Of a stretch of DNA of 64,000 nucleotides, positions 49,595 to 62,953 are shown in pieces. Position 1 is the first letter of the stretch, and every line of letters begins with the position of its first letter. This DNA comes from Fodinibius salsisoli (GTDB taxonomy: Bacteria; Bacteroidota; Rhodothermia; Balneolales; Balneolaceae), in assembly GCF_026229185.1 (NCBI RefSeq), contig NZ_JAGGJA010000006.1, positions 62,001 through 126,000 on the forward strand, given 5' to 3'. Below the pieces are notes generated by a model. That model saw nothing but the letters and a program-made list of their open reading frames with translations, searched no databases and was not told where the DNA came from. The translations under genes were made by a program, and so were the position numbers.

Positions 49595-50926
49595 TTGGAT
49601 ATCGCCTTGGATACTGAAGCATCTGCTCGTTCTGTCAGCGTAGAAATATTAATCGATTTTGATGAAAATAATGTCTTAGATTATTCAGTTGCCAATCAAC
49701 TTGATTCGCGCGGCCGCGCTGAAGTACGTGAATATGTGCAAAACATTTTAAGGCGTCGCTCCTATCTCGATTTCCTGATCGATGAGTTTTCCAACGTTAA
49801 GATCGCTGAGATGAAGTCGAGCCTGAAGAACATTCTTCGGCTGGGCATCTATGACATGATCTTCATGGACAGTACGCCCGACTATGCGGCTATCAACGAG
49901 TCGGTGGAAATTGCCAAAATTAAGCTGGGCTCTCGCACGGGCGATCTGACCAACGCTATTATGCGCAACCTGCAGCGCGATATCGATAACTTACCCAAAC
50001 CTTCTTTTGAAGATCGCACCAGGCTCGTTGCCACCACCTTTTCTCATCCGGAATGGCTGGTGAAGCGCTGGACCGAACGTTTTGGCGAGCGCGAGGCCTT
50101 TCAACTGATGCAGGCCAACAACAAACGGCCCGCTTATTTTATACGGGCCAATAACCTGCGCACCAAGACCAAGAATTTTAAGCTCCGGATGACCAAGCAT
50201 GATATTGCCTTTACCGAAAGCGACTGGCTGCCGGGCTATTTTGAAGTGGACAGCGTAGCTCCATTCATCACCAAAGGCTGGCTGCAAAAAGGGTTCTGCC
50301 AGATCCAGGATATCGCCGCAGGCTTTGCTCCTTTTCTTCTGGATCCCCAATCGGGCGAAGATGTTTACGATTTATGTGCGGCCCCGGGAACCAAGAGCGT
50401 GGTGATGTCGGACCTTATGAATGCCGAAGGCAGCATTTTGGCCGTCGACATTTCTTCGGAACGCCTCGATAAGCTGGCAGAAAGCGCCCTCTCCTACCAT
50501 GCAGAAAATATTCGTGTCCGCCGGGCCGATGTGACCGAGCTGGAACTGGATGAAGCCGATGCCGTACTGCTGGATGCCCCCTGCACCGGCACGGGCGTGT
50601 TAAGCAAACGGGCCGACCTGCGATGGCGCCGAGATCAAGAAGGCCTTGACAATGCTGTTGAACAGCAAGCCAAATTGTTAGACTCTGCGGCCAAAATGGT
50701 TAAAGTAGGCGGACGTTTGGTCTATAGCACCTGCTCTCTGGAAGAAGAAGAAAATATGGAGCAGGTCATGAACTTCCTCGACCGCAATGAAAACTTTGAG
50801 ATACAACCAGTAGAAGGCTACGTGCCCGATGAAGTCATCGCTCACGGTGGACTGGCGTACCAGACTTTCCCCCACAAGCACGGCTGCGACGGACACTTTG
50901 GCGTACTGCTCAAGCGAGTGAATTAA
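49595..50926 (+). CDS. rsmB: 16S rRNA (cytosine(967)-C(5))-methyltransferase
   Basis: A 443-residue RsmB/Fmu protein. The N-terminal NusB-like RNA-binding domain (about residues 1-135) is followed by a Rossmann methyltransferase domain with FCQIQDIAAGFAPFLLDPQSGEDVYDLCAAPGTKSV. The two active-site cysteines are in LLDAPCTGTGVLSKRADLRWRR and LVYSTCSLEEEEN. The start is TTG at 49595; no better start keeps the NusB-like domain. A long inverted repeat follows the gene. Confidence 0.92.
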   Translation: MDIALDTEASARSVSVEILIDFDENNVLDYSVANQLDSRGRAEVREYVQNILRRRSYLDFLIDEFSNVKIAEMKSSLKNILRLGIYDMIFMDSTPDYAAINESVEIAKIKLGSRTGDLTNAIMRNLQRDIDNLPKPSFEDRTRLVATTFSHPEWLVKRWTERFGEREAFQLMQANNKRPAYFIRANNLRTKTKNFKLRMTKHDIAFTESDWLPGYFEVDSVAPFITKGWLQKGFCQIQDIAAGFAPFLLDPQSGEDVYDLCAAPGTKSVVMSDLMNAEGSILAVDISSERLDKLAESALSYHAENIRVRRADVTELELDEADAVLLDAPCTGTGVLSKRADLRWRRDQEGLDNAVEQQAKLLDSAAKMVKVGGRLVYSTCSLEEEENMEQVMNFLDRNENFEIQPVEGYVPDEVIAHGGLAYQTFPHKHGCDGHFGVLLKRVN

Positions 50927-51029: not shown

Positions 51030-51475
51030 CAGTATACTGATCTTTTCCGATTTCTCTCCTACTCATCCTTGCCTAATGAAGGCTTCTCTTATCAGTTCTC
51101 GAACCTTTTCTCTCCATTTTTTTCAGCTTTCCGGGATGATTTTGTGCGCCAATGGGTCCCCGGTCAAGCCTATACCAACGCTACACCACCTCCCCTGCCA
51201 GTAGGAGTTGGTGCCCGGCAGAATAGTTGTTGGCACCCGATAGGATTAGTAAATATTTGCTGGAAAATCAACTTTAGGATCAAAACCTTCTTTACCGCCC
51301 AGGCTGCATTCCCAACGAGCATTAATCAAAAGATATCAATCGGACTTTTACCCCGTTAGAAATTATGGTGGTTAAAATAATCTTTAAGGCTATTTCTTAC
51401 GTATCGCTTTCCCATTCCTGACTTTAACTATTTCTCTCTTGCTATGGCATCATCCAAGATAAACGTAAACGATAC
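51030..51475. other. Intergenic region left of the integron
   Basis: About 445 bases between the rsmB terminator and the end of intI. An open frame covers 50958-51359 but it starts inside the terminator repeat and its composition is not protein-like, so it is not called. No attC-like site is recognised on this side. Confidence 0.5.
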
Positions 51476-52438
51476 TTAAAACTTATCAATAGGACTCTTC
51501 ACCCCTTTGCCGCCCTTATTCAAAACATGCGTGTATATCATGGTTGTTTTTACATTCTTATGCCCCAGCAGCTCCTGTACGGTACGGATGTCATATCCAT
51601 CATCCAAAAGATGCGTGGCGAATGAGTGACGAAAGGTATGGCATGTAGCATGTTTTTGTATGTTTGCCTGACGGACGGCCTTGCGAACCTTTTTTTGTAC
51701 AGACGATGCAGATATATGATAGCGCTGATACATCCCTGATCGTGGATCTTTCCGGCGCTTTCGAGAGGGAAACAGGTATTGCCATTTTTGCTCTTTATTG
51801 GCACTGGGGTATTTTTTATCCAAGGCTTTGGGAAGTATTACCCCGCCCCACCCTCTGGCCAGATCTTTGTCATGAAGCTTTTTAACTTTTCTCACATGCT
51901 CTTTCAATACATCTATTAACCGATCAGGAAGGATTGTTATGCGATCTTTAAGTCCCTTGGAATTACGCACACATACTTGCCGGTACTCAAAATCCAAATC
52001 CTGTACTCTTAACCGTAGTGCCTCTGATATTCTAAGCCCTGAGCCATAAAGTAACTGAACAACCAGCTGTTTTACGCCCTGTAAAAACTGTAATATACGC
52101 TCTACCTCCGCCGGTGTTAAGACAACGGGCAAATGATCAGACTCCCTGGCCCGTTTCAGGTTTGTGAGTTTGGGCGCCTGTTTATCAAGCACATTTTTAA
52201 CGAAGAAGATAATGGCGCACAACGCTTGGTTCTGCGTTGATCCGGCTACCTTTCTTTCGGTTGCCAAATAATTCAGATAAGCCGTGATGCTTTTCTTACT
52301 AATCGTGCCCCCATTCTCCTTTTTGATATAGACTAAAAACCGCTTAACCCATTGAATGTATGATTTTTCAGTGCGATAACTATAGTTTCGGCGCCTTATT
52401 TCTGTTCTCATATCACTCAAAGCTCTCGATTGATTCAT
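51476..52438 (-). CDS. intI: Integron integrase (IntI family tyrosine recombinase)
   Basis: A 320-residue tyrosine recombinase. The N-terminal SAM-like core-binding domain (about 15-85) has [21 protein letters not shown]. Catalytic residues visible are Arg136 ([19 protein letters not shown]), Lys161, His267 and Arg270 ([13 protein letters not shown]), His293 ([11 protein letters not shown]) and Tyr302. The insert [44 protein letters not shown] (about 192-235) is the extra helix region that distinguishes IntI from XerC/D. It should recombine attI with single-stranded attC hairpins. It is intact, so the array may still be active. Confidence 0.95.
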
Positions 52439-52516
52439 AATACCATAATCCTTTATTCCTATATGTTCTACAGGTAAGAGTCTTTTCTCGCCAAATCCTT
52501 ACAGATTTATTTAAGA

Positions 52517-52561
52517 ATATTATCCGGATACATTATCAGGAATCCCTATTCCGGATAATAT
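52517..52561. promoter_or_regulatory. Perfect 12-bp inverted repeat upstream of intI
   Basis: ATATTATCCGGA (52517-52528) and TCCGGATAATAT (52550-52561) are exact inverted repeats 21 bases apart, lying 79-123 bases upstream of the intI start. The position between the integrase gene and the attI crossover suits an operator, a promoter-proximal fold, or accessory integrase-binding sites of attI. No LexA-type CTGT-N8-ACAG box was seen. Function is inferred only from place. Confidence 0.55.
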
Positions 52562-52619
52562 CCGCTGAATGTGCTCTCATGATAAATAACTGGACAAACC
52601 CCGATATTATATGGAAGTT

Positions 52620-52660
52620 GTGCTGAAGCGGGATTCCGCTCAATTATATGTTAGTTTGCC
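52620..52660 (+). other. attI recombination site, crossover at 52650/52651
   Basis: The core GTTAGTT (52650-52656) approximates the GTTRRRY consensus. It is identified because GTTAGTTTG (52650-52658) is the exact reverse complement of CAAACTAAC (52890-52898), the 5' core of the first attC, marking 52651 as the first base of cassette 0. The extent of attI to the left is not defined. An imperfect GAAGCGGGATTCCGCTC palindrome lies just before the core. Confidence 0.7.
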
Positions 52661-52891
52661 CGCCGGCCTTCACGGTTTGTCAAAAAATACAGTTGCGGCT
52701 TAAAAACATCCGTTATTAAGCCGCTTCTCGGTCGCTTTTACAACAACTTTCGTCTGGTTCAGAATGTATCTGCTTTTCCGAAAATCCTAGTTCACATTTT
52801 GTCTTGGCCGGTCGGGGCTAATTCAATTCTGCGTCCGAGTTTCTTCCGTCGTTTTTATCACAATTTTGCTGGCTCCACATTTTTTGCCCCA
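52651..52891 (+). other. ORF-less cassette 0
   Basis: The body of the first cassette has no open frame longer than about 20 codons from ATG on either strand. It contains a 9-bp inverted repeat, GCGGCTTAA and TTAAGCCGC, near 52695-52725. It is next to attI, so it is the most recently inserted cassette if insertion is at attI. It could carry a promoter, a small RNA or nothing functional. Confidence 0.65.
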
Positions 52892-53017
52892 AACTAACCC
52901 GCGCATTAACGCGGACGCCGCTCGCCCATTGTTTCCGGTTTTTGCTTTTGCGGTTCAAATTTTATCATTTATAAACCGTCAATAATCCCGGCGCAGGTTA
53001 TGCGCCGTCCGTTATAC
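52892..53017 (+). repeat. attC site of cassette 0
   Basis: A 126-base site. R'' core AACTAAC (52892-52898), then GCGCATTAACGCGGAC; the 3' part is GCGCAGGTTATGCGCCGTCC ending in the R' core GTTATAC (53011-53017). The L arms pair (GCGCAT-AAC with GGTTATGCGC) with unpaired bases, as in active attC hairpins. Crossover is between 53011 and 53012. Confidence 0.82.
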
Positions 53018-53043
53018 TTAATTAATTTTTCATCAAAAACCAC

Positions 53044-54096
53044 ATGCGACGTTTATTTCTTTTAATCCTTTTTTCTTTTTTTCACTTTGCTATTCAGGCT
53101 CAAGAGGCCGAGCAAGTTTTTTTAAAAAATGGCGAAATTCTTTTTGAAGCTTCTCCTGATTTAAAACAGAAGAATGCTACTCAAAGTGATATGCAGGAGA
53201 TAATGCTTCTTGACCTTTCCAAGGGAAAAATACAACGATTAACATCGGATCGGAGTAAAGATAGTAACCCATCTTTTTTCAGAAACGGATCAATAATATT
53301 CGACTCAAAGCGACCTTGCGAAGGTGGATTAGCAGAAAATTGTCCTTCTAAATTATTCACTGTGTCAGAAGGAAATTCTGTGGATAAACTTAATTTAGCT
53401 CTTGATGATGCTATGCGAAGAGTGCAGGAAGAATCACGTCAGGATTCGTTATATAGCAAACTAAAAAAACTTGGAATTCAGATTTTTAATTCTGAAAATT
53501 TTAGTGTCGAAGAGCCGATATATAACAATGAAAAAAATTACTTGGCATTTATTTACTCAACCCCAAGATCTTTTTTGGTTGTCTACAATTTAAACACAGA
53601 TAAATTACACTACATCGACAAAATTCCTGGCTCATCTTCCAATTTTAAGTGGTCACCTAATGGAAAATATTTGGCCTATTCTTATTCTATTTTAGACGGA
53701 CTATTTCCAAAGGGAAGTAAAAATGTAATTATTGATATAGAAACACTTGAAGTATCAACCCTCGAATTGGATAATGAAGATCTTAGATTTGAAAATTGGT
53801 CTTTAGATGGAAAATACTTGTTACTATCTAACCGATTTGAAAATGAAAAAGGCCATTTTATAACTGATGGATACAAACTCGAATGGCCAACCCAAAAAGT
53901 TCAAAAAATTAATGAAAACCTACTTCCTTTTGTCAGCAGCTGGATTCAAATTGTTTCTGATAATCAGTATTTAGTACAAAAGTTTGATGAGGATAGTAAT
54001 TTTGATCTTTGGATAATTGATTCTGATGGTGCCGATGTACAGAGATTAACTGAAGATGGACGCTTGAAATTTGTTACAGATACCAAGAGTAATTAA
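53044..54096 (+). CDS. Cassette 1: exported propeller-like protein (TolB/PD40-type repeats)
   Basis: A 350-residue protein with a signal peptide (MRRLFLLILFSFFHFAIQAQ). The rest reads as beta-propeller repeats like TolB/PD40: DLSKGKIQRLTSDRSKDSNPSFF, FKWSPNGKYLAYSYS, ENWSLDGKYLLLSN and DLWIIDSDGADVQRLTEDGRLKF. It is probably periplasmic or surface-exposed. The DNA is clearly more AT-rich than the flanking chromosome. The gene starts 32 bases into its cassette and ends at the first bases of its attC. Function unknown; propellers of this type bind proteins or sugars. Confidence 0.75.
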   Translation: MRRLFLLILFSFFHFAIQAQEAEQVFLKNGEILFEASPDLKQKNATQSDMQEIMLLDLSKGKIQRLTSDRSKDSNPSFFRNGSIIFDSKRPCEGGLAENCPSKLFTVSEGNSVDKLNLALDDAMRRVQEESRQDSLYSKLKKLGIQIFNSENFSVEEPIYNNEKNYLAFIYSTPRSFLVVYNLNTDKLHYIDKIPGSSSNFKWSPNGKYLAYSYSILDGLFPKGSKNVIIDIETLEVSTLELDNEDLRFENWSLDGKYLLLSNRFENEKGHFITDGYKLEWPTQKVQKINENLLPFVSSWIQIVSDNQYLVQKFDEDSNFDLWIIDSDGADVQRLTEDGRLKFVTDTKSN

Positions 54097-54225
54097 GTAT
54101 AACAAGCGCGTCAACTCGGACGTGCCTCGCCATTGGCTGTCAAGTTTTAATTCATCAATTACTGTAGTACATTTTTAAATAATAAACGTTGTTCCGCACG
54201 CCGGTTATGCGCAATGTCGTTATAT
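54097..54225 (+). repeat. attC site of cassette 1
   Basis: A 129-base site. R'' GTATAAC (54097-54103) is followed by AAGCGCGTCAACTCGGACGT; the 3' half is GCACGCCGGTTATGCGCAAT ending with R' GTTATAT (54219-54225). The 5' half is nearly identical to that of the next attC, while the middle differs. The stop codon of the cassette gene lies directly before it. Confidence 0.85.
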
Positions 54226-54236
54226 GCACTTAATTC

Positions 54237-54590
54237 ATGAATAGAATTTCATACTCAGATATTGATCCTATACTTAATGAATGGGCTAGTCGGCATGGCC
54301 TTCATATTTCTACCAGATATAAAGATTATGAAGTTCGTGCTGTGACTATTGTCGATGATTCTGGCGATATGTATGGTCTAGGAGTCTGGCCGATAGAGAA
54401 TTCAGGAAAAGTTGAAGTGTCAGTTAATTTGAAAGAACGTTCTCAGCGTCGCACCTCAATTCCAGAGAAGAAGAAATTGCAGGCATCAAAAGAAGTATCT
54501 GTCTCAGATCTGCCAAAAACCTTAGAAGAATTCTACAATTTAGTTGAGGATTGGATCTCCGAAGAAGGCCACACACGAACTACGCCATAA
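54237..54590 (+). CDS. Cassette 2: unknown 117-residue protein
   Basis: A soluble 117-residue protein with no signal or membrane segment. It opens with ISYSDIDPILNEWASRHGLHISTRYKDYEVRAVTIVDD, an alpha-beta pattern, then VWPIENSGKVEVSVNLKER, and ends with an acidic helix LPKTLEEFYNLVEDWISEEG. I do not recognise a family. Size and layout (start 17 bases after the crossover, stop 12 bases before its attC) are typical of cassette genes. No partner gene is present, so a two-gene toxin-antitoxin is unlikely. Confidence 0.7.
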   Translation: MNRISYSDIDPILNEWASRHGLHISTRYKDYEVRAVTIVDDSGDMYGLGVWPIENSGKVEVSVNLKERSQRRTSIPEKKKLQASKEVSVSDLPKTLEEFYNLVEDWISEEGHTRTTP

Positions 54591-54602
54591 ATCCCTGCGT
54601 GC

Positions 54603-54731
54603 ATATAACAAGCGCGTCAACGGCGGACAGGCCTCGCAATCCCTTGCTAGCTTAAGGTTTTATAGTTAACCTTTCACTTGTAAATAGTTCAAGACTTTGG
54701 CGCCTGCCGGTTAAGCGCCAGACCGTTATAG
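54603..54731 (+). repeat. attC site of cassette 2
   Basis: A 129-base site. R'' ATATAAC (54603-54609) is followed by AAGCGCGTCAACGGCGGACA; the 3' half is GCCTGCCGGTTAAGCGCCAG with R' GTTATAG (54725-54731). The arms GCGC-T-AAC and GGTTAAGCGC pair with extrahelical bases. It shares its 5' half with the attC of cassette 1, showing the typical relatedness of sites in one array. Confidence 0.85.
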
Positions 54732-54846
54732 GGCTTCACTCATTCAGACACATCGACTCATAACAATTTTTTCCGCATATATTTGTAACAACTCAAAATA
54801 TTATTCCGTAACGGCTTCTAGTTAAACATTAATCATTTGCAAACGG

Positions 54847-55563
54847 ATGAAGACAGCCCATAGAACAGTTAGCAGAAAAAAAACACTTGTGGTTTTTATA
54901 TGCACGATTGTTGCAGGATTTATTTTATTTGCTCTCCCAAACTTATTCTTCGGTATTACAAAAGTTAACGGTGGTCTTACAGGGATAAATTTATTGATCA
55001 TTGCCCTCTTCCAGCTTACCGCTGTTTGTTCGTTAATTTATTTTTCACTCAGATTATTGCACAAAGATTTCCAGTACATCGGCTGGTCTGGAAAAAACTG
55101 GCAAACAGATAGTCTGCTGGGATTGCTAACTGGATTGGCTTGGACAGCTCTGCAATTCGGATTAATAATCCCGAATACGGGAGGAGCGCAAAGGACTGAT
55201 ATTGCCCAGATGGTCTCGATGTTCGATGGAACACTATTAGGCACACTTTCTTTTATAGCTTTAGGAGTAATTGGAGGCGGCATTACAGAAGAGATTTTTA
55301 ACAGAGGCTACTTCATCAATGTCTTAAAAGACATATTTAACAATCCAAAAACAGGACTTTGGACTGCTGCTGTCATATCAATTGCATTTTTTGCTATCGG
55401 ACATTTACCGGCCGATGCTCTAGGCTGGTTTGATATTTTAATACCAACCACTGCTTATACAGCGTTATTCTTATATACCAAGCGATTAACGGCATCGATC
55501 ATAGCCCATGGAATTTACAACATGTCAGCCATCTTATTGACATACTATATTTATTATCATTGA
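54847..55563 (+). CDS. Cassette 3: CPBP family intramembrane glutamic endopeptidase
   Basis: A 238-residue membrane protein with about six to eight hydrophobic segments. The CPBP (Rce1/Abi) motifs are complete: motif 1 EEIFNRGYF with Glu148, Glu149 and Arg153; motif 2 FFAIGHL with His186; motif 3 HGIYN with His221 and Asn225. Family members cleave within membranes, mature peptides such as bacteriocins, or confer immunity to them. As a cassette it could offer peptide-toxin immunity or phage-related defence, which is inference. It starts 121 bases into its cassette. Confidence 0.85.
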   Translation: MKTAHRTVSRKKTLVVFICTIVAGFILFALPNLFFGITKVNGGLTGINLLIIALFQLTAVCSLIYFSLRLLHKDFQYIGWSGKNWQTDSLLGLLTGLAWTALQFGLIIPNTGGAQRTDIAQMVSMFDGTLLGTLSFIALGVIGGGITEEIFNRGYFINVLKDIFNNPKTGLWTAAVISIAFFAIGHLPADALGWFDILIPTTAYTALFLYTKRLTASIIAHGIYNMSAILLTYYIYYH

Positions 55564-55630
55564 AGCCATTATCAAACTATGGAATACTTGCCTTTTCTAA
55601 ACCTAAAATCCTATCATCCCAATCAAAGCC

Positions 55631-55790
55631 CTATAACGACCTTGCGGACTACTACGCCGAAGTAGCACGGCTACGTAGGCTGTACATAAGCTGCACGCGC
55701 AAGAATGTTGATTAGTTAAATAATTAACGAAGAGCTAAAAAGCCAGAAGTTGGCAGGCCCAGGCGAGGCGTGTCCGCAAGGTCGTTATAG
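55631..55790 (+). repeat. attC-like site of cassette 3, unusual perfect arms
   Basis: A 160-base site. R'' CTATAAC (55631-55637) and R' GTTATAG (55784-55790) sit within 25-bp arms (55625-55649 and 55772-55796) that are perfect inverted repeats, including ACCTTGCGGAC and GTCCGCAAGGT. Unlike the other three sites there are no visible unpaired bases in the arms and no GGTTATGCGC-type L box. The centre contains further short hairpins (e.g. CTACTACGCCGAAGTAG). It ends the array; no later attC was found. Confidence 0.75.
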
Positions 55791-55869
55791 GGCTTTATTT
55801 TTTGCTTAACTAATTCGAGTGCTGTTCGTATAGCAATCTCACATTATAATAACCCCTTGGGAAATACCT

Positions 55870-60915: not shown

Positions 60916-62442
60916 ATGAGTAACACCGCTTTAATCCTGTCATTATTTCTTTTCATTAATTTTTCAGCTGCAGGTCAAGAGGCATCAACATTTTATTGCC
61001 CGCCCTGTGATTGCCAAGCCCATGAAGCAAACGAAGCGTTCAATGAAAGCGGCACGTGCCCCTATTGCGGGATGGTACTGATAGAGACCGAAAGTTCACC
61101 TGTCCCATCTATATCCTATCAAAAGCTACTGGAATACGAAGGCAAATATGAATACGTCTCGGGCTCAACATTAAAAATTATGGCTTCACCAATGGATACC
61201 ACGCTTTATGCAGTTATTAACAATGCTAAATATCCGCTATCCCATGTTGAAAGAGATACCTTTTCCAATGTTCAAAATATCCCCGTGGCCTTTCAGAGAG
61301 ATAACCAGGGCAACATCAGCGGTTATACGGTTAATGGTCAATCCTTTGGGCTAATTACAACTGATATTGAAAAATTGGTGATGTATCCCCGTAAAGAGTT
61401 GTTTGATCATCCTGAGGATTATACCTATCAGACTCCCGAAGAAACAAATGATGGCCTTGAAATCGGGAATATCAACAATGCCTTTAAAAAGCCGGTACTG
61501 CTTAAAGAAATGGTTAAAGAAACCATTAAAGGTGAATATCCCGATGTTCACAGTATTTTAATTTATAAAGACAACAGGCTGGTCCTGGAAGAATATTTTT
61601 ATGGATATGACAAAAATACAAAGCATCAGCTGCGATCAGCAACCAAAGCATTCATCGGATCACTGGTAGGCCTGGCAATAGAAGCCGATGCAATCGGGAG
61701 CGAGCAGGATCAACTCTTGCCGTATTTTAGGGACGAATACGAGAGCTTTGAGCATATGAGCAAGCAGAAAAAAAGTATTACCATTCAGGACTTCTTAACT
61801 TATCGTCACGGGCTGGATTGCGAAAACAACAATCCCGAAAGTGCTGGCAATGAACAACAGATGATGGAAAATGCCGACTGGGTAAAATACACGCTCGACC
61901 TTCCGGTCGTCCATCAGCCCGGGGAATTATCATCATATTGTACGGGAGCGGCATTAACCCTGGGGCGGCTTATTGAGTTGGCAACGGGTCAAACGTTAGA
62001 AGCCTTTGCCAATGAACATCTCTTTACCCCTATGGGCATCACCAACTACGACTGGCGGTTTGCCCCTGACTCCACAAGTCGACAGACCTTTAGTCAAATG
62101 TACCTGCAGCCCCGAAACCTTGTGAAACTTGCAGTAATGTATATAAATGAGGGCCAATGGCAGGGCGACCAAATTCTTCCGGCAAACTGGGTGCAGAAAA
62201 CATTTAACAAACATACGCCCGAATTTGGCTACTTATGGGAACACAAATATGTTGTCATTAATGGAAAACGATATACCTCCTACATGGCATCGGGTAATGG
62301 AGGCCAAAAAATAAATATATGGCCTGCCTACAACATGATTACCGTTTTTACGGGGGGAAATTATAATTCCTATGAACTGTATGGAAAAAGCACACCTCCG
62401 AATCAAATGATCCCGAAATATATATTACCGGCCCTTGATTAA
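60916..62442 (+). CDS. Serine hydrolase fused to a heavy-metal-binding domain
   Basis: An exported protein (signal MSNTALILSLFLFINFSAAGQ; the GTG at 60880 is an alternative start). Right after the signal is a Cys-rich module TFYCPPCDCQAHEA, then ESGTCPYCGMVLIE, resembling the heavy-metal-binding domain usually seen in copper/silver proteins (YTCPMHP, CPKCGM). A beta-rich region (about 80-165 of the long form) precedes a beta-lactamase-fold hydrolase with S-A-T-K (RSATKAFIG), a Tyr motif (SSYCTGAAL) and GNGGQ in place of HxG. The fusion of a metal-binding module with a serine hydrolase is unusual. Confidence 0.8.
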   Translation: MSNTALILSLFLFINFSAAGQEASTFYCPPCDCQAHEANEAFNESGTCPYCGMVLIETESSPVPSISYQKLLEYEGKYEYVSGSTLKIMASPMDTTLYAVINNAKYPLSHVERDTFSNVQNIPVAFQRDNQGNISGYTVNGQSFGLITTDIEKLVMYPRKELFDHPEDYTYQTPEETNDGLEIGNINNAFKKPVLLKEMVKETIKGEYPDVHSILIYKDNRLVLEEYFYGYDKNTKHQLRSATKAFIGSLVGLAIEADAIGSEQDQLLPYFRDEYESFEHMSKQKKSITIQDFLTYRHGLDCENNNPESAGNEQQMMENADWVKYTLDLPVVHQPGELSSYCTGAALTLGRLIELATGQTLEAFANEHLFTPMGITNYDWRFAPDSTSRQTFSQMYLQPRNLVKLAVMYINEGQWQGDQILPANWVQKTFNKHTPEFGYLWEHKYVVINGKRYTSYMASGNGGQKINIWPAYNMITVFTGGNYNSYELYGKSTPPNQMIPKYILPALD

Positions 62443-62953
62443 GCTGGTGTTATACCCCGCACTTTATTAGTGCTATCCCGACCTATCCGGATATGCAAAA
62501 ACGTCTTTCTTATTACAAATACCAGCACGGCGGGAGACAAGCTAGCCCCCCCCTACTTAGGTCACCCCGGCCGCTCACAGTCCTTCTTCGATTCTTCCAA
62601 GATATGATTATTTTACTTCCCTGAATTAATTATATGCACGGTGCTTATACCATATATAATGAACTCTTATATCAAAAAGAGTATGACTCATTAAACAATA
62701 ACAAATACGCAATTAATAAAGAACTCATTCTATACGGCATCAAGAAGTTGGCCCCATTTAATCATGCTGTAACTTTTGAACAGAAGGAAAATGTAAGTCA
62801 TCTATAACAACGATTCCAACACAGACCTGACCGCTGATTGCCATATTAAAAGTTGTAAGCTAACAGAAATTTAGCATTTTAAACTAATACCTGCCTATAG
62901 GATTACGCTGGTTAAACCGTGGGTCGTTATTCTATTAAAACATGCTTAGCTAA
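62443..62953. other. Intergenic region before the sensor kinase
   Basis: About 510 bases. Apart from the short ORF at 62634-62807 there is no convincing gene. The region includes a C-rich stretch near 62550 and AT-rich sequence closer to the kinase, where its promoter should lie. Confidence 0.45.
62634..62807 (+). CDS. Possible small ORF, 57 residues
   Basis: ATG at 62634 to TAA at 62805-62807. The peptide is polar and Lys/Asn/Tyr-rich (YNELLYQKEYDSLNNNKYA, then INKELILYGIKKLAPFNHAV), with no signal or membrane helix. Composition is protein-like but no family is recognised and no ribosome site is evident. It may be a remnant of a larger gene or chance. Confidence 0.25.
   Translation: MHGAYTIYNELLYQKEYDSLNNNKYAINKELILYGIKKLAPFNHAVTFEQKENVSHL

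Follow-up and report, generated by a model that had tools for sequence, protein, structure and literature searches.

The window analysed here is a stretch of 64,000 nucleotides, corresponding to positions 62001 to 126000 of contig C40 in a 4.85-Mb genome of 43 contigs (G000). It carries an intact integron integrase gene, intI, on the minus strand, followed by an attI region and a row of four cassettes on the plus strand, so that the integrase faces away from the cassettes, as the original prediction had it. The conserved left neighbour, rsmB, lies outside the integron. The features are collected in Table 1.

Table 1. Features in and around the cassette array (window coordinates)
Feature	Position	Strand	Properties
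rsmB, conserved left neighbour, outside the integron	49595-50926	plus	NF011494 337 bits, cut-off 319
GIY-YIG nuclease gene remnant, then second decayed IntI C-terminus	51326-51460	minus	frame 'DDAIAREK*LKSGMGKRYVRN ... GKSPIDIF*'
intI, integron integrase	51476-52438	minus	320 aa, intact; TIGR02249, IntI4 2a3v, motifs
attI region	52439-52650	plus	cassette start 211 bases from intI; likeness to L066
Cassette 0, without conserved ORF	52651-53011	plus	9-base complementary ends; ORF-less cassette family
attC of cassette 0, canonical	52892-53017	plus	126 bases; R1 68.7 bits, E 1.3e-12
Cassette 1	53012-54219	plus	14-base complementary ends; ORF 53044-54096, 350 aa
attC of cassette 1, canonical	54097-54225	plus	129 bases; R1 80.1 bits, E 4.5e-15
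Cassette 2	54220-54725	plus	11-base complementary ends; ORF 54237-54590, 117 aa
attC of cassette 2, canonical	54603-54731	plus	129 bases; R1 69.3 bits, E 9.3e-13
Cassette 3	54726-55784	plus	12-base complementary ends; ORF 54847-55563, 238 aa
Atypical last site	55631-55790	plus	160 bases; perfect 25-bp inverted-repeat arms 55625-55649, 55772-55796
41-nt REP-like hairpin-forming insert in attC arm of fourth site	55644-55684	minus	8 genome copies
Weak, possibly decayed attC 7 kb beyond the array	62802-62932	plus	R1 34.3 bits, E 3e-5

The intI product scored 434 bits with the IntI model TIGR02249, far above the cut-off of 265, and the XerD and XerC models gave 155.5 bits (cut-off 329.6) and 154.5 bits (cut-off 335.15), respectively, less than half of what they demand. 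Its best solved relative is Vibrio IntI4 (2a3v; E 3e-82), to which it aligned over nearly its full length. Catalytic residues and an IntI-specific insert had been predicted: the motifs, MIYTH among them, are present at residues 132, 161, 266, 291 and 300, with residues that we take to be the catalytic ones, and the IntI-type insert is found at residue 197. The nearest relative of this IntI, with 79% identity, is encoded at locus L066 of genome G001. In a tree that included one XerD-like row, these two formed a clade of their own (support 99/100), and the other two IntIs of the genome fell outside it and clustered with IntIs of G002, G006, G007 and G009. Comparison with L066 gave a pN of 0.14 and a pS of 0.88, which indicates strong purifying selection on the window IntI, with synonymous change saturated. 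A plasmid search with the window IntI returned at least 5000 records, and all 5000 that were kept were less than 60% identical; among the 25 matches listed, the best was Kovacikia at 52%, and intI1 stood at 48%.

Beside intI we found the remnant of a small GIY-YIG nuclease gene (approximately 51360-51460) and a decayed second copy of the IntI C-terminus (approximately 51326-51352). Positions 51346-51455 shared 85% identity with L045:13048-13157 across 110 bases; that segment of L045 overlaps the GIY-YIG ORF by which the genome's third intI is interrupted. We conclude from the remnant and the second C-terminus that the platform has been disturbed.

Searching the window against Rfam gave no match at gathering scores, and we therefore built our own attC model. 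Candidates were collected with a stem finder, the loose first version of which (many false matches) was replaced by a tightened one. From 105 candidate sites beside IntI, 17 with chance-like stems or a misplaced end were dropped by eye and 88 were retained. These span 88-161 bases and were taken next to IntI at 17 loci of this genome and of Balneolales relatives; three are from this genome and none from the window locus. An alignment of 52 of the 88 sites served to make the covariance model R1. In these training sites, which had been picked partly for pairing, arm covariation was 0.310 compared with 0.121 in 500 shuffles, double-changed cells numbered 147 compared with 62.5 in the shuffles, and 88.7% of cells were paired compared with 25.7-38.3% when the arms were slid against each other. 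Column 26 of the left arm is unpaired and is A in 48 of the 52 sites; column 17 is also unpaired. In known attC sites, bulged bases mark the bottom strand, and the two unpaired columns resemble such bases.

The original prediction had proposed four attC sites of 126 to 160 bases. The lengths (126, 129, 129 and 160 bases) hold, and R1, although trained on none of the four, recognized the first three as canonical sites (Table 1), but it gave no plus-strand match at the fourth. The weak match further downstream was also considered as a cassette end and rejected, as its best cassette-start match was 7 bases, which is chance level.

The start and end of a cassette are expected to be complementary because both meet in the circular form. 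In the window this complementarity extended over 9, 14, 11 and 12 bases for cassettes 0 to 3, in agreement with the boundaries that had been predicted on the same grounds; by way of a yardstick, 5 of 400 random TAAC ends reached at least 9 bases when 1.3 kb upstream were searched. Over the wider set, ends of the same cassette paired over a mean of 9.9 bases (74 cassettes; median approximately 11), compared with 5.1 bases across attC (92 pairs); one of the 74 values stands at 0 where 14 is correct, owing to a 3-base misplacement of both ends of the first attC of the window, and one of the 92 is also wrong.

The 9-base pairing of cassette 0 would place the attI insertion junction at G^TTA (52650/52651), 211 bases from intI. 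Using the same cassette-end rule, we obtained a junction 213-252 bases from intI in 12 of 16 further integrons (matches of 6-14 bases). With the window integron counted, this makes 13 of 17 at 211-252 bases, L087 among them with a 6-base match only. The rule pointed elsewhere in L083, L093, L077 and L086, possibly because the first attC was overlooked in these four integrons. The attI region of the window is 71% identical over 203 bases to that of L066. Scanning for the cassette promoter Pc yielded one match compared with 2.0 expected, the promoter type of this lineage lying outside the coverage of the scan.

Cassette 0 contains no frame that is open throughout all its relatives. Copies related to its body (243 bases) occur in 4 of the 58 genomes of the family, the present one included: G003 carried seven matches including two tandem pairs, G004 six, four of them over only about 32 bases, and G008 a single match of 33 bases with a divergent remainder. 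The family also sits between attC sites in these three genomes. A double change occurred in just 2 of 31 predicted pairs, and RNA structure is therefore not claimed for the ORF-less cassette. The protein of cassette 3 is a CPBP/Rce1-like intramembrane protease (PF02517, 60 bits; cut-off 22.4), and that of cassette 1 is weakly TolB-like, resembling a beta-propeller (TIGR02800, 46 bits, well below the cut-off of 343); its signal peptide was judged by eye only. For the cassette 2 protein, no match was obtained in NCBIfam, Pfam or PADLOC. The PADLOC defence-gene search matched none of the three cassette proteins of the window; the TIR and SIR2-like proteins that it brought up are located in the third integron of the genome.

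The fourth site is a real cassette boundary, as the 12-base end pairing demonstrates, and it is not a canonical attC. Here R1 produced a partial match on the minus strand (55690-55777; 24.3 bits, model positions 19-108), and the interior of the site resembles an attC in reversed orientation that is enclosed by symmetric arms. The insert in its arm reads TACAGCC...GTCCGC on the minus strand. At up to 3 mismatches the eight genome copies are those of the fourth site and of seven other attC-like sites, and by eye all eight are situated in the right arm, between the L' arm and the spacer. Akin to the insert are 35-nt cores with 3-4 mismatches that also occur outside attC (L178, L179, L180 and L185). 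The left arms of several other insert copies look abnormal by eye. We infer that the insert-bearing attC was rearranged, e.g. by template switching in its hairpin. In view of this rearrangement, the symmetric arms and the insert, the fourth site would probably recombine poorly or not at all, and cassette 3 has probably become immobile.

We conclude that the locus is very probably a classical chromosomal integron. The intact IntI integron that had been predicted is borne out by the TIGR02249 score, the three attC sites found by R1, the attI junction and the cassette-end pairing. IntI would be produced from its own divergent gene and would act on attC in the form of its folded bottom strand, recombining it with attI at the 52650/52651 junction. 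Circular cassettes would thereby be inserted one after another, all directed away from intI, and may then be expressed; the three cassettes with canonical attC sites would be exchangeable. Judged from its sequence, the integron is probably working, as is indirectly suggested by the purifying selection on IntI and by the presence of the cassette 0 family in G003, G004 and G008, all of the same genus.

The same anatomy could also belong to a recently inactive relic that no longer exchanges cassettes and whose array is decaying from the far end. This is compatible with the integron reading, and the rearranged fourth site, the weak sites beyond it, the GIY-YIG remnant beside intI and the interrupted third intI of the genome would fit it. 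We consider it rather unlikely, however, as the window IntI is under purifying selection and both the attI junction and the three attC sites nearest to intI are intact. In our opinion it is very unlikely that the fourth site works as an attC of another shape, with the 41-nt insert as an accepted part: it does lie exactly at the cassette boundary, with its 12-base pairing, and shares the insert at the same point with the other attC-like sites, but its interior is oriented wrongly, its perfectly symmetric arms leave no space for the unpaired left-arm bases seen elsewhere, and the left arms of several other insert-bearing copies are abnormal by eye. There is practically no chance that a XerC/XerD-type or other tyrosine recombinase stands here beside unrelated hairpins, since the common superfamily and Xer matches of about 155 bits are opposed by Xer scores below half of the cut-offs, an IntI score far above its own, three attC sites found by an independent model and the pairing of the cassette ends.

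We then compared the surroundings of the integron with those in related genomes. The rsmB gene was found in all 12 genomes of the genus, and valS (identified by NCBIfam, 1162 bits) follows it in all 11 relatives, at a distance of 0.1-0.3 kb in eight genomes and of 0.8, 2.7 and 6.2 kb in one each. In the present genome valS is at C40:181562, and 68.6 kb separate the two genes, with the integron at the rsmB end. In the rsmB surroundings of the 11 relatives, 208,893 bases in all, R1 found nothing at E up to 1. The location next to rsmB, to which the original prediction had drawn attention, is thus correct for this genome but is not a feature of the lineage. Within the 68.6 kb, a site at C40:130530 scored 34 bits and had a 13-base cassette-start match 686 bases upstream, which 1 of 400 random ends equalled within 1.3 kb; at least one further cassette is likely in this region. 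Other attC-like sites there were weak by R1.

The genome encodes three IntIs that exceeded the cut-off, and in one of these the gene is interrupted close to its end. R1 found at least 41 attC matches (E up to 0.01), a lower bound, as the scoring covered 150 of the 1159 first-look candidates. The locus is one member of a set that spans the genome, comprising three intI loci and dozens of attC sites.

The original prediction had implied that such an integron is rare in this lineage, which our searches contradict. IntI exceeded the cut-off in 11 of the 12 genomes of the genus (the exception being G011) and in 31 of 58 genomes in the search of relatives. Across the phylum it was present in 85 of 296 sampled genomes (E up to 1e-80), a count that takes in partial genes and the own genus, and in 0 of 14 control genomes. 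All 12 genomes of the genus had R1 attC matches, 11-43 each, with the maximum of 43 in G004. Integrons of this kind have been described before, and they abound in the lineage. In the parts of the literature available to us, intI is reported in the Bacteroidetes/Chlorobi group (PMC2426708), Bacteroidota are listed among integron-bearing groups (PMC8618304, PMC9668308), and a complete integron is described for Salinibacter ruber M1, assigned to Bacteroidetes (PMC9024848). The latter is a different organism, likened here by its description. Bacteroidota are not among the 11 taxa for which attC models were made according to the available part of PMC8352920, and none of six group names searched for occurs in that of PMC7923331, on integrons of hypersaline sites. 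Our search found no publication on integrons of Balneolaceae or Fodinibius, which is weak evidence of absence.

Sedentary chromosomal integrons are known from Proteobacteria such as Vibrio, Xanthomonas and Shewanella, and the core of their cassettes in textbooks is 7 bases long. Like them, the window integron has its intI oriented away from attI and from successive cassettes that carry structured attC sites. In contrast to them, its array is short, its attC sites are of a type of its own lineage (88 sites, 88-161 bases), and cassette ends in this lineage pair over approximately 11 bases.

The locus adds a well-resolved, apparently intact integron to a lineage with few named ones, and R1 could be used for mining Balneolota. 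The attC-arm inserts, the ORF-less cassettes and a gene encoding only an IntI domain raise questions about integron regulation and attC decay. One could imagine a genome-wide multi-integrase cassette system peculiar to Fodinibius, with end matching over about 11 bases, ORF-less cassettes multiplying in tandem and a hairpin element that inserts specifically in attC arms; a conserved protein that stands alone and consists of nothing but the IntI N-terminal domain could modulate recombination in it. We regard this as quite unlikely. Our search returned no literature on truncated or dominant-negative integron integrases.

On the short contigs L009 and L010, the stem finder detected no convincing attC. 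L010 belongs to Fodinibius halophilus and agrees with L064 of G004, a genome of the same genus as the present one, at all of 1838 bases, which makes the genus very probably Fodinibius (Balneolota). The IntIs of F. halophilus and other Balneolaceae are 58-59% identical to the window IntI.

The third intI gene of the F. salsisoli genome (locus L045) is interrupted near its end by a small gene for a GIY-YIG nuclease, which has inverted repeats of CCCCGTTAGAAAT type on both sides. A remnant of this type of GIY-YIG gene, followed by a second IntI C-terminus, sits immediately behind the intact intI of the window. The third integron also holds TIR-domain and SIR2-like genes, similar to anti-phage defence proteins. 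On L045, an IS110-family transposase gene directly adjoins a 39-bit partial match to attC; attC sites are known targets of IS1111-type elements.

Features of the integrons and of related loci in the genus (L, fetched loci; C, contigs of the F. salsisoli genome)
Feature	Location	Strand	Context
GIY-YIG nuclease gene	L045:13058-13327	-	interrupts third intI
GIY-YIG remnant, second IntI C-terminus	window 51326-51460	-	
TIR-domain and SIR2-like genes	L045:15160-17676	+	within third integron
IS110-family transposase	L045:17958-18980	+	immediately adjoins partial attC match
Partial attC match	L045:18998-19099		
IntI N-terminal-domain-only gene	L046:7294-7677	-	
Further copies	L213, L214, L215, L216, L217, L083, L086, L064		genus genomes
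attC rows	C22:25830-43112; C10:54034-61332	single strand	
ORF-less cassettes	L198, L201, L208, L199, L202, L207, L209, L200; window 52651-53011		
41-nt REP-like sequence	L102, L142, L145, L146, L150, L160, L161; window 55644-55684		attC-like right arms

We also observed a separate gene whose similarity is confined to the N-terminal (SAM-like) domain of IntI. It is present in nine genus genomes and measures ~109-136 codons from stop to stop; a 93-codon fragment occurs in G011. The gene order around it is identical in G002, G003, G005 and G008, without an integrase. In G007 the gene stands after the same neighbours on its left, and intI comes next. Given a dN/dS of ~0.1 in the comparison among G003, G005 and G008, it looks like a gene for a functional protein.

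On contigs C22 and C10 of the F. salsisoli genome, attC matches lie in rows on a single strand, and no IntI match above the cut-off was found on either contig; these rows are CALIN-like. Cassettes without an ORF, including one of the window, form one family with two size classes (~250 and ~350 bases ahead of attC), and occur in tandem copies in G003. Eight different attC-like sites, one of them in the window, carry a REP-like hairpin sequence of 41 nt at a constant position in their right arm, and 35-nt cores akin to this sequence are also found outside attC.
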